From positions 1 to 33,676 of IMG/VR virus record IMGVR_UViG_3300021960_000280: a DNA stretch of 33,676 nt; one strand, 5' to 3'. Of this stretch, positions 14,062-22,687 are shown piece by piece. Source of the DNA: a virus. Positions within the stretch are counted from its first letter, which is position 1; each line of letters opens with the position of its first letter. The notes beneath the pieces were generated by a model. The model was given only the letters and a program-made list of their open reading frames with translations. It was not told the origin of the DNA and ran no database searches. The translations under genes were made by a program, and so were the position numbers.

Positions 14062-14368
14062 GCAAAGAGTCGTCTATCCACACATCAGGCATGATAGGTG
14101 GTGACATCAGTCTTGACAACTTATCAGCATATATTTCTTCTTCTCTATCTAAGTACCATCTTTGTTTTTTGCACTCTTCAATCCTGTTCTTTAACTTTTC
14201 TACTTCAGTTAAATCTTTAGATTGTTTATGACCTCTTCTATCAAGATACTTTCTGTTATTACCCTTACAGTATCCGATAACTTCTTCTTCGGTCATTTTG
14301 GCTTTTATAATGTCAAATGTTTCTATACCACCAACCTTGTAATGGTCTGGATTAATAGGATCACTCAT
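14048..14368 (-). CDS. DUF3310 family protein
   Basis: This 106-residue protein starts at 14368 in an ATGA overlap with the preceding gene. It has the DUF3310 (PF11753) signature: DPINPDHYKVGGIETFDII, GNNRKYLDRRG and a C-terminal helix ending RWYLDRE. The family is widespread in phages and sometimes annotated as nucleotide kinase, but that activity is not evident from motifs here. The C-terminal 25 residues are acidic and family-atypical. Confidence 0.8.
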   Translation of the reverse strand: MSDPINPDHYKVGGIETFDIIKAKMTEEEVIGYCKGNNRKYLDRRGHKQSKDLTEVEKLKNRIEECKKQRWYLDREEEIYADKLSRLMSPPIMPDVWIDDSLHDED

Positions 14369-14595
14369 TTTAATACCTCGTTATCTACAATAATTAAATC
14401 TTCAAAAATTTCACATTGTGTATCTTTAACTTTTAGATAAATATTATTCAACTCCATTGACCTAATTAATTTACCTTTATAACACATGAACTCTTTTTTA
14501 TGGGGTTCTTTTATCAAATCATAATGAATATATATTCCAAATGCAAGGAATATTACTAGAAAACTAACAAAAATTTTAAGTATTTTCATGACCAT
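14365..14595 (-). CDS. Small membrane-anchored protein (76 aa)
   Basis: The start at 14595 follows GGAG with nine-base spacing; an in-frame ATG at 14589 is possible. Residues 3-24 are a transmembrane or signal-anchor helix (MKILKIFVSFLVIFLAFGIY). The rest is soluble, with two cysteines. It is the first leftward gene after the non-coding (on this strand) stretch 14596-14768 that holds pqqA. Function unknown. Confidence 0.55.
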   Translation of the reverse strand: MVMKILKIFVSFLVIFLAFGIYIHYDLIKEPHKKEFMCYKGKLIRSMELNNIYLKVKDTQCEIFEDLIIVDNEVLK

Positions 14596-14635: not shown

Positions 14636-14641
14636 TATAAT
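14636..14641 (+). promoter_or_regulatory. Candidate -10 box for pqqA
   Basis: A perfect TATAAT lies on the plus strand, predicting a start site near 14648 and a 42-base leader. No good -35 hexamer is found at 16-18 bases upstream (sequences such as ATAAAT), so the promoter may be weak or need an activator. Its relation to the palindrome starting at 14647 suggests regulated transcription. Confidence 0.4.
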
Positions 14642-14646
14642 TACAC

Positions 14647-14666
14647 TTGTAATACAAGTATTACAA
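14647..14666. promoter_or_regulatory. Perfect inverted repeat upstream of pqqA (operator-like)
   Basis: TTGTAATACAAGTATTACAA is a perfect inverted repeat with nine-base arms and a two-base centre. The centre is too small for an RNA hairpin loop, so a DNA site for a dimeric regulator is more likely. It covers the predicted transcription start of the pqqA cassette. The arms contain nested copies of CTTGTA/TACAAG. The binding protein is unknown. Confidence 0.6.
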
Positions 14667-14689
14667 ATTTAGAAGAAAGGGGAATGACT

Positions 14690-14761
14690 ATGTGGACAAC
14701 ACCATCAGCAACTGAAATGCGTTTTGGATTTGAAGTAACAATGTACGTTTGCAACAAGTAA
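14690..14761 (+). CDS. pqqA: PqqA, coenzyme PQQ precursor peptide
   Basis: ATG 14690 follows AAAGGGG with seven-base spacing; an ATG at 14684 is too close to it. The product is 23 residues, the same length as Klebsiella PqqA. It begins MWTTPSATEMRFGFE and continues VTMYVCNK. The E-V-T-x-Y core is intact, with Glu15 and Tyr19, the two residues that PqqE crosslinks and from which PQQ is built; Trp2, Pro5, Arg11 and Gly13 also agree with bacterial PqqA. No pqqB-E gene is present, so host enzymes would process it. It lies opposite in strand to the early operon around it. Confidence 0.9.
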   Translation: MWTTPSATEMRFGFEVTMYVCNK

Positions 14762-14768
14762 TTTTATT

Positions 14769-15296
14769 TTAGGGGCTGCTTTTAAAGGCCCCTAGTAATT
14801 TTGCAATATCTGTTAATTCGTTATCCAGAACAACATAGTTGTTTAAGTAACCAAGATTTTCTACTCTATTAATTTTAAGTATTTTCTCTTTAGTAATCCA
14901 ACCTAGTATATTCCCATTAAAAGTTTCTGGATATAACCTAACCGAAATATAAACATCTTTTGGGTTTTTGTTATATTGTTCTACCATTTCTAATGTTCTG
15001 GTATGAAACTTTTGCGTTCTTGTTTTTACATCAACTGTAATACCATTAACAATAAAATCATAATCATCAGGTTTAGTGTAATGAGTATTGTCCTCTTGAT
15101 ACATTATATTGTGATCAATTAACCATTGCTTAAATATCTTTTCACCTAGTTTACCTTCAAACATTTTTTGTTGCTTGTCATCTAATGTGCCATTATGAAA
15201 GTCATGTCTATTAGATGTATGTGATCTAGATAATAAAGCATAATCCTGCGCTTCATCGATAAGGTCTTGACCAATGTAAATCAATGGGGAACTCAT
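14769..15296 (-). CDS. PD-(D/E)XK nuclease-like protein
   Basis: This 175-residue protein starts at 15296 after GGGGAGATA. A FEGKLGEKIFKQWL helix supplies an acidic residue, and DDYDFIVNGITVDVKTRTQ gives the D...(D)xK pair characteristic of restriction-endonuclease-like folds. It belongs to the leftward recombination operon downstream of the YqaJ exonuclease and SSB-like genes. A DNA-end or branch nuclease role is inferred. Confidence 0.65.
   Translation of the reverse strand: MSSPLIYIGQDLIDEAQDYALLSRSHTSNRHDFHNGTLDDKQQKMFEGKLGEKIFKQWLIDHNIMYQEDNTHYTKPDDYDFIVNGITVDVKTRTQKFHTRTLEMVEQYNKNPKDVYISVRLYPETFNGNILGWITKEKILKINRVENLGYLNNYVVLDNELTDIAKLLGAFKSSP
14770..14802 (+). terminator. Terminator-like hairpin behind pqqA
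   Basis: TAGGGGC at 14770-14776 pairs perfectly with GCCCCTA at 14788-14794, followed on the plus strand by GTAATTTTG. It begins nine bases after the pqqA stop and would end a short pqqA-only transcript. It overlaps the 3' end of the minus-strand nuclease gene. On the minus strand no T run follows, so it is unlikely to stop the early operon. Confidence 0.6.
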
Positions 15297-20627: not shown

Positions 20628-20824
20628 TGTTTGAATTTTGTTTAATTGTTTATTTAACAATGGAAGAACCAAAATATATAGGTAACTTTGAAAGTTGTGC
20701 AGTTGCTAATTTATATGTTGCAAAATATTATAAAGATGCTCCATATACAATATGTTTGCATGAAGATTATATTCATTTGCCAGACAACCTTATTAAAAGA
20801 GATGTTAATGTTTCAAGTGAATAA
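20627..20824 (+). CDS. Small conserved phage protein (65 aa)
   Basis: ATG 20627 overlaps the previous stop (TGATG) and follows GAGAGG. The protein begins MFEFCLIVYLTMEEPKYIGN and has FESCAVANLYVAKYY and CLHEDYIHLP. I recall similar 'LVVYLTM...F.SC..A..Y...CLHEDY' proteins in many phages, none with assigned function. Its end overlaps the start of the oxygenase gene. Confidence 0.65.
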   Translation: MFEFCLIVYLTMEEPKYIGNFESCAVANLYVAKYYKDAPYTICLHEDYIHLPDNLIKRDVNVSSE

Positions 20825-21413
20825 ATTATATCTTGATAACGATGAAATAGTTTCAAAATTATTTAAGTTAAAAAAATACTGGATAAAACGATTCAATGTG
20901 CCATTTTACACATTAGGACGTAATGCTTACCTTGATGGTAAAACAAATGATTATTATAAAAATATAAATGAAGTAAAACGTGAGTTATTGACTAATTTTC
21001 CTAGTGAGTATGTTCATATTATATTGCTGTTAGAACATTATTTAAATGAAAAGATATATATTCATCATGATTATGCTATACCATCGTTTCATATTTTTGA
21101 ATGTGATCCTGTGTTTTTAAATTTTCCAAGTAATTGGCACACAGACTATCCACATGAAACTTTAGGGTTAGGTAATAAGGATCATCATAGTTTTACTTAT
21201 GTGGTTAAAATTCCATCATCAGGAGCAGGACTAGAATATGAAGATAATGATGAAATTAAGTATTTAGAATATAGTCCATTTGATTTTATATTTCATAAAG
21301 GTAATTTTTTGCATAACATTGCACCATTAAAAAAATACAAACCAAATGAATACAGAATTACTTTACAAGGTCATATTATTAGACATAAAGACAAATTAAT
21401 AATGTTTTGGTAA
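20808..21413 (+). CDS. 2-oxoglutarate/Fe(II)-dependent oxygenase
   Basis: I place the start at ATG 20808 (201 residues); ATG 20802 is also possible. The earlier in-frame ATG at 20688 lies deep in the upstream gene. The 2OG-Fe(II) motifs are present: NWHTDYPHE (HxD) near residue 116, then FLHNIAPLKKYKPNEYRITL with the distal His and the Arg that binds 2-oxoglutarate. FYTLGRNAYLDG and PSFHIFECD precede it. It adjoins a TAGT-type glycosyltransferase, so a DNA-base hydroxylase is possible, but protein or small-molecule substrates are not excluded. Confidence 0.7.
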   Translation: MFQVNKLYLDNDEIVSKLFKLKKYWIKRFNVPFYTLGRNAYLDGKTNDYYKNINEVKRELLTNFPSEYVHIILLLEHYLNEKIYIHHDYAIPSFHIFECDPVFLNFPSNWHTDYPHETLGLGNKDHHSFTYVVKIPSSGAGLEYEDNDEIKYLEYSPFDFIFHKGNFLHNIAPLKKYKPNEYRITLQGHIIRHKDKLIMFW

Positions 21414-21442: not shown

Positions 21443-22687
21443 ATGAGTAATTATTTTAAAAATGAAGGACAAATTAATAAAGTAGAAAACCTAGATTTAT
21501 TTGGTGGGAATGAAACTTTTGATTCTAGTTTAACAAATACTAAAACTTACCTTACAAACCAAGCATATGAGTGGGAAGGTATGTTGGAATATAACAATAT
21601 ATTTCAAGAAGGCCCGGAATATTCAATAACTTTAAAGTTTAGAAATGAAAAAGATTTTCTAAAATGCAAAGAAGAAATAAGATCTAAACTATATAATGGA
21701 GAAGTGTTTCTTAATGGAACACAAGATAAAAAATTCAAACAAGCATGGTATCCACTTAGAGAACAACCAAGTGACCATGTGTATATATCAACTAATCCTA
21801 AAAATCCAAGATTTCCAATTTATATTGTTAGTAAAGGAAGATGGGAAACTAATCCAACAAGTCGTGCATTAATAGAAATGAATGTACCCTTTAAAGTCGT
21901 CATAGAAGAACCTGAGTTTGATAATTATGCAAAACTTGTAGGTGAAGAACGATTATTAATTCTTCCTGAAAAATACAAAAAAGAATACAACACATTTTGG
22001 GAAGATGATGATGGTCGAGTAGGGCCAGGAGCTGCAAGAAACTTTGCATGGGATCATTCTATACAAGAAGGTCATGATTGGCATTGGGTAATGGACGATA
22101 ACATAGGAAATTTTTACAGATTTAATAACAATGTTAGATCGCCTGTAAAAGACGGTACATTGTTTTATGCGTGTGAAGATTTTGTATTGCGTTATGAAAA
22201 CATTGCACAAGCAGGGCCTAACTACACAACATTTTGTCCTCCTGCAGAGGGTAGACCACCCATAATGATGAATACAAGGATATACAGTTGTCTTTTAATT
22301 AGGAACGATATGCCTTATAGATGGAGAGGTCGTTATAATGAAGATACTGATTTATCATTAAGAATGTTAAAAGATGGATATTGTACTGTACAGTTTAACT
22401 TTTTATTACAAGGCAAAATGGGTACTCAACAATTAAAAGGTGGTAACACTGAAGAGTTCTATGCAAACGAAGGTACAAAAAATAAGTCTCAGATGTTAGA
22501 AGATATGCACCCAGACGTTGCAAGTGTTGTATATAAATTTGGTAGATGGCATCATCATGTAGATTACACACCATTTAAAAATAACAAATTAAAAAGAAAA
22601 GAAGGTATAATCATTCCAGACAATAATGATAATTACAATATTATTAAAATAACTAAGGAAGAATATGGGAAAAGGAAGCTCACCTAG
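21443..22687 (+). CDS. TET/JBP-associated-type glycosyltransferase (TAGT-like)
   Basis: This 414-residue protein starts after TGGAGAGATAAA. A roughly 110-residue N-terminal region is followed by a GT-A-like domain: FPIYIVSKGRWETNPTSRAL at about 130, then GPGAARNFAWDHS, HWHWVMDDNIGNFYR (metal-binding DDN) near 215, RPPIMMNTRIYSCLLIRND and RYNEDTDLSLRMLKDGY (catalytic-type acidic cluster). These are the motifs I associate with TAGTs, which sugar-modify oxidised pyrimidines in phage DNA. The oxygenase gene just upstream fits that partnership. Confidence 0.75.
   Translation: MSNYFKNEGQINKVENLDLFGGNETFDSSLTNTKTYLTNQAYEWEGMLEYNNIFQEGPEYSITLKFRNEKDFLKCKEEIRSKLYNGEVFLNGTQDKKFKQAWYPLREQPSDHVYISTNPKNPRFPIYIVSKGRWETNPTSRALIEMNVPFKVVIEEPEFDNYAKLVGEERLLILPEKYKKEYNTFWEDDDGRVGPGAARNFAWDHSIQEGHDWHWVMDDNIGNFYRFNNNVRSPVKDGTLFYACEDFVLRYENIAQAGPNYTTFCPPAEGRPPIMMNTRIYSCLLIRNDMPYRWRGRYNEDTDLSLRMLKDGYCTVQFNFLLQGKMGTQQLKGGNTEEFYANEGTKNKSQMLEDMHPDVASVVYKFGRWHHHVDYTPFKNNKLKRKEGIIIPDNNDNYNIIKITKEEYGKRKLT

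Follow-up and report, generated by a model that had tools for sequence, protein, structure and literature searches.

Why would a phage carry the gene for a peptide that is consumed in making a cofactor, and none of the genes for the enzymes that consume it? PqqA is spent one for one in PQQ synthesis, while PqqB-E are catalysts and are reused; a phage gene for PqqA alone therefore raises the question of what such a gene is for. The locus considered here lies in the IMG/VR virus record IMGVR_UViG_3300021960_000280, the whole 33,676-nucleotide stretch of which was analysed and is referred to below as the window. The record carries an SU10-type portal and a major capsid gene, and it looks like a fragment of a lytic SU10-type podovirus. 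The nearest portals are those of ctXG6705 (68%) and then of the OM43 phage Venkman (67%), both of which carry pqqA, and the putative host is assigned from this portal similarity and from pqqA itself.

A PqqA precursor peptide encoded alone

The gene is the only one on the plus strand at this place and is flanked on both sides by minus-strand genes:

14365..14595, minus strand: left neighbour, 76-aa protein of unknown function
14636..14641, plus strand: TATAAT, candidate -10 box, 54 nt 5' of the ATG, without a recognisable -35 box
14647..14666, no strand: inverted repeat TTGTAATAC-AA-GTATTACAA, which may act as an operator or a leader hairpin
14675..14681, plus strand: Shine-Dalgarno-like AAAGGGG, about 8 nt 5' of the ATG
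14690..14761, plus strand: pqqA (ORF call, PqqA profiles), 23-aa PQQ precursor peptide MWTTPSATEMRFGFEVTMYVCNK and stop
14769..15296, minus strand: right neighbour, weak UPF0102/phrog_13389 similarity
14770..14794, plus strand: TAGGGGC...GCCCCTA stem-loop 3' of pqqA, terminator-like, with a weak T tail

The ORF starts with ATG, ends with TAA and comprises 23 codons, exactly where the first-pass annotation, made from the DNA letters, had placed a 23-codon gene with a ribosome binding site. Its identification as PqqA is borne out by both curated PqqA models, which are matched over their full length and exceeded by a wide margin: TIGR02107 of NCBIfam gives 43.3 bits (E = 2.2e-11, profile positions 1-21 of 21) against a cut-off of 20 bits, and PF08042 of Pfam gives 41.3 bits (E = 1.4e-10) against a cut-off of 21.1 bits. 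Glu15 and Tyr19, the residues that the annotation had singled out for cross-linking, are both in place with the E-x-x-x-Y spacing, and cross-linking by PqqE with PqqD and conversion to PQQ are predicted for the phage peptide; work on the PqqE/PqqD cross-link is cited in PMC9851590. The reported absence of pqqB-E also holds, as no PqqE above cut-off was found in the window and no other PQQ-biosynthesis model matched any of the 50 window ORFs scanned. With pqqB-E absent, the window does not encode a complete pqqABCDE pathway.

Elsewhere in the window, a plus-strand gene at 21443-22687 encodes a TET-associated glycosyltransferase family protein (PF20691, 130 bits) with a PHROG match to beta-glucosyl-HMC-alpha-glucosyltransferase, and the adjoining plus-strand gene at 20688-21413 encodes an uncharacterised protein that may be an oxygenase. 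This pair suggests modified DNA bases in the window phage.

Distribution of pqqA among phages

A search of 50,697 phage records for PqqA recovered nine Methylophilales/Methylophilaceae isolate records, namely P19250A, Venkman, MEP301, MEP401, MEP402 and four Melnitz records, and also ctXG6705. The gene is present in all nine of the Methylophilales/Methylophilaceae phage records found (MEP431-434 and other listed methylotroph phages fall outside this count), and these span at least three portal families, the portal types among carriers being SU10-type, T7-type and T4-type. No gene is called over pqqA in P19250A, Venkman, MEP301, MEP401 and MEP402, and the annotation of Melnitz and ctXG6705 places a hypothetical ORF on the other strand there instead. 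The remaining matches in the collection were two contigs labelled Acinetobacter phage MD-2021a and one weak partial match in an unannotated record. The one MD-2021a contig of the two that was opened (CAKLQF020000010.1) carries pqqABCDE together with ppk and fur, and was rejected as a phage carrier because it is plainly chromosome. No genuine phage with pqqA was found in the collection for the PQQ-making Pseudomonas, Klebsiella and Acinetobacter, and Roseobacter relatives of MEP402 were not among the PqqA matches. Since phages of Pelagibacter, Vibrio and Pseudomonas that share the portal type were likewise missing from the matches, pqqA follows the host and not the phage lineage.

IMG/VR was scanned with degenerate DNA patterns. 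The first pattern gave at least 120 matches, and all 120 listed are full-length PqqA ORFs; the recurrence of the ATG-to-stop ORF in every one of them argues that the pqqA ORF is not a product of chance. The codon ACG at Thr17 is rare in this set (5 of the 120 listed), yet a sub-scan requiring it also returned at least 120 matches, 119 of the 120 listed being PqqA-like, and the IMG/VR total therefore probably reaches the low thousands at least, as an order-of-magnitude estimate. Conservation in related phages, on which the first-pass annotation had staked its assignment, is thus found in nine isolate records and at least 120 IMG/VR contigs, and the computational attempt to overturn that assignment through a missing profile match or missing conservation failed.

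Whole records were checked in 42 cases, each with exactly one pqqA over the cut-off; a portal of the SU10, T7 or T4 family was matched at E < 0.001 in 27 of them, 23 scoring over the family cut-off. PqqE above cut-off was found in none of 50 other records. One pqqA is likewise present in a jumbo virus record of 356 kb whose portal is of the T4 type. At nine viral loci the PqqA is unlike the Methylophilaceae types, for example IRLGFEVTMYFKNR and IRLGMEITAYVMNR, and these variants possibly come from phages of other PQQ-making hosts.

Conservation, selection and the host background

In a second degenerate pattern residues 15, 16, 17 and 19 were left free. Glu15, Thr17 and Tyr19 were unchanged in all 120 listed IMG/VR matches of this pattern, and the sole change at the free residues was Val16 to Ile in five of the 120. 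The free codons vary at silent positions, with a non-synonymous/synonymous codon-pair ratio of 0.054; overall pN/pS was 0.17 for viral copies versus 0.14 for host copies, both figures being lowered by the constraints of the search patterns themselves. Judged by these codon comparisons, viral pqqA is under strong purifying selection, and the invariance of Glu15, Thr17 and Tyr19 indicates a peptide maintained as a substrate that can be cross-linked and not as a decoy.

All 100 Methylophilaceae genomes sampled contain pqqA, with a mean of 4.4 and a median of 4 copies; 3-12 copies, usually with a single pqqBCDE set, have been described for the family (PMC4109929). For Hyphomicrobium, a PQQ-producing methanol user, five copies are reported, two of which show much higher expression than the other three, with a peak that coincides with PQQ synthesis (PMC9851590). 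PqqA dosage is thus a trait that these bacteria already show. Host and phage PqqA share their length, the MW-x-x-P...MRFGFEVTMY core and DNA similarity over ribosome binding site and ORF, and host copies outnumber the pqqBCDE sets, some of these copies being solitary as in the phage. The phage gene differs in residing in a genome without pqqBCDE and in having a different upstream region, with TATAAT in about a third of cases.

Control regions of phage pqqA

DNA similarity between host and phage at pqqA is generally limited to the ribosome site and the ORF, so that phage copies mostly have their own control regions; a match between L263 and P19250A was set aside as an instance of host-phage similarity, because the ORFs of L263 look like phage DNA. 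Of 148 viral copies, 138 have a Shine-Dalgarno-like motif 5' of the gene. A TATAAT hexamer is present between -65 and -25 in 51 of 156 phage copies, and in 138 host copies (among them L263, a 'genome' contig resembling phage DNA) it falls outside the 12 commonest upstream hexamers, with five or fewer occurrences. Upstream regions are more AT-rich in phages than in hosts (GC 30% versus 36%); AT-richness alone seems unlikely to explain the positional TATAAT peak. When scanned for two-box sigma-70 promoters, neither the window nor the viral upstream regions gave more matches than shuffled sequences; across the latter regions of the viruses, TATAAT alone, and no -35 box, is enriched. With no -35 box the pqqA promoter is only suggested, and the gene is probably transcribed from a promoter of its own.

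The inverted repeat stands directly 3' of the TATAAT box and is near-identical in two related phages; as a phage-wide operator it was rejected, given its single occurrence in the window. Downstream, the GC-rich stem-loop overlaps the end of the convergent ORF. Terminator-like hairpins follow pqqA in 63 of 151 phage and 103 of 127 host copies, against 4 of 151 and 2 of 127 when the same criterion is applied to shuffles. An Rfam search returned no match.

Proposed role in infection

We propose, and consider highly probable, that phage pqqA is an auxiliary metabolic gene supplying the one consumed component of the PQQ pathway. It is a host-type metabolic gene within genuine phage genomes, as attested by portal, major capsid and isolates, and selection maintains it across phages of one host group. 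In the proposed sequence of events the phage would take over or curb host transcription, and PqqA would be the first pathway component to run short, ahead of the enzymes, because each PQQ made uses up one PqqA, whereas the enzymes act repeatedly. The lone phage gene, expressed in infection, would refill this limiting precursor: host PqqE and PqqD would cross-link the phage peptide at Glu15-Tyr19, and later host Pqq proteins would turn the product into PQQ. PQQ output would thus continue and PQQ stay available through infection, the XoxF-type methanol dehydrogenase, central to host energy supply, would go on oxidising methanol, and the phage would presumably benefit.

The first-pass annotation had named methanol or sugar dehydrogenases as the enzymes sustained. 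The former are the likelier and the latter less likely, because the carriers are phages of methylotrophs and, within the collection, pqqA was found in no genuine phage of PQQ-making Pseudomonas, Klebsiella or Acinetobacter. A 72-kb viral contig (G026) carries pqqA together with a PQQ-dependent alcohol dehydrogenase and a formate-dehydrogenase-like molybdopterin subunit, a gene content in line with sustaining methanol oxidation; it has several PHROG matches, and no portal belonging to any of the three families tested was found on it. The contig also encodes Hsp70, Cpn60, ribonucleotide reductase and an adenylate-cyclase-like protein. Counted against the auxiliary metabolic role are the several pqqA copies that hosts already carry, and the stability of PQQ and methanol dehydrogenase, which may be sufficient to outlast a lytic cycle. 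A bolder version, in which a lone and mostly unannotated pqqA is near-universal in Methylophilaceae phages, was acquired separately by unrelated lineages of phages, exists in thousands of viral contigs from the environment, and marks PqqA supply, as opposed to the PQQ enzymes, as the point where methanol oxidation fails in infection, is considered somewhat probable.

Alternative explanations

A lone substrate-like peptide without pathway enzymes could also be a decoy or inhibitor that occupies PqqE/PqqD or another host protein and shuts down PQQ synthesis. Such a peptide is very unlikely given that Glu15 and Tyr19 never vary in the 120 listed copies, though left free in the search, and that many of the phage peptides do not differ from host PqqA at all and hence would simply be processed. 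The same conserved peptide would serve if, during infection, PQQ worked as an antioxidant or redox signal and not as a dehydrogenase cofactor, and its sequence is equally compatible with both uses; the restriction of annotated carriers to methylotroph phages and the contig with both a PQQ-dehydrogenase and pqqA point to methanol oxidation, which makes this second function unlikely.

That pqqA was acquired by chance, or that the contigs are mislabelled host DNA, is suggested by the MD-2021a record, a chromosome labelled as phage, and by some phage copies that are almost identical to host copies over ribosome binding site and ORF. The nine isolate genomes already contradict this, and the portal matches in 27 of the 42 whole records, the absence of PqqE above cut-off from all 50 records and the strong purifying selection weigh against it as well, leaving it highly improbable. 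Confinement of host-phage similarity to ribosome binding site and ORF, in hosts with several pqqA copies, would also be expected if the phage copy were an attP site whose insertion leaves host pqqA intact. A search covering tyrosine, not serine, integrases found them in none of 42 pqqA-bearing records, many of which are fragments, versus 14 of 14 control genomes (none was found in the window either), and the integration target was rejected as having a negligible probability.

Relation to known systems and significance

Whether phage pqqA had been reported before was a question left by the first-pass annotation, and the answer is yes (PMC7678222; PMC13188868). The Lake Baikal Methylophilaceae virus VP_266 encodes PqqA and a methanol dehydrogenase (Coutinho et al. 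2020, PMC7678222) and resembles the present case as a putative methylotroph phage with a viral PqqA of the same proposed role. VP_266 is T4-like and encodes methanol dehydrogenase, whereas the window represents a small SU10-type podovirus with pqqA alone, and the pattern described here is general across phage types. Viral pqqA, pqqD and pqqE from reservoir metagenomes are listed as phosphate-solubilising auxiliary metabolic genes (PMC13188868, 2026), and are interpreted there in terms of phosphate solubilisation; in the passages covered, neither phages of methylotrophs nor a lone-substrate pattern is brought into connection with them. The term 'pqq' is absent from the text of the OM43 phage papers PMC8024684 (MEP301), PMC10580990 and PMC8163748 (Venkman), and appears in the Melnitz paper (PMC9004378) solely as a medium component. 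In the literature covered, which was mostly open-access and did not include the original description of P19250A, pqqA, auxiliary metabolic genes and viruses are mentioned together in two papers only. Viral pqqA is thus already known; how widely it occurs, how it tracks the host and that it comes as a lone substrate appear to be undescribed in that literature.

As an auxiliary metabolic gene, phage pqqA recalls psbA of cyanophages, by which the phage supplies a fast-turnover part of the host energy machinery; psbA replaces a damaged protein, whereas phage pqqA would replace a consumed substrate peptide. Methylotrophs of the OM43/Methylopumilus type, which occur in large numbers in coastal and fresh waters, depend on PQQ for methanol oxidation. 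Routine supply of the PQQ precursor by their phages would mean that viruses influence methanol oxidation in aquatic habitats by way of a gene of just 23 residues, one overlooked by standard annotation. A testable question is also raised: does a consumed peptide substrate limit cofactor supply in infection?
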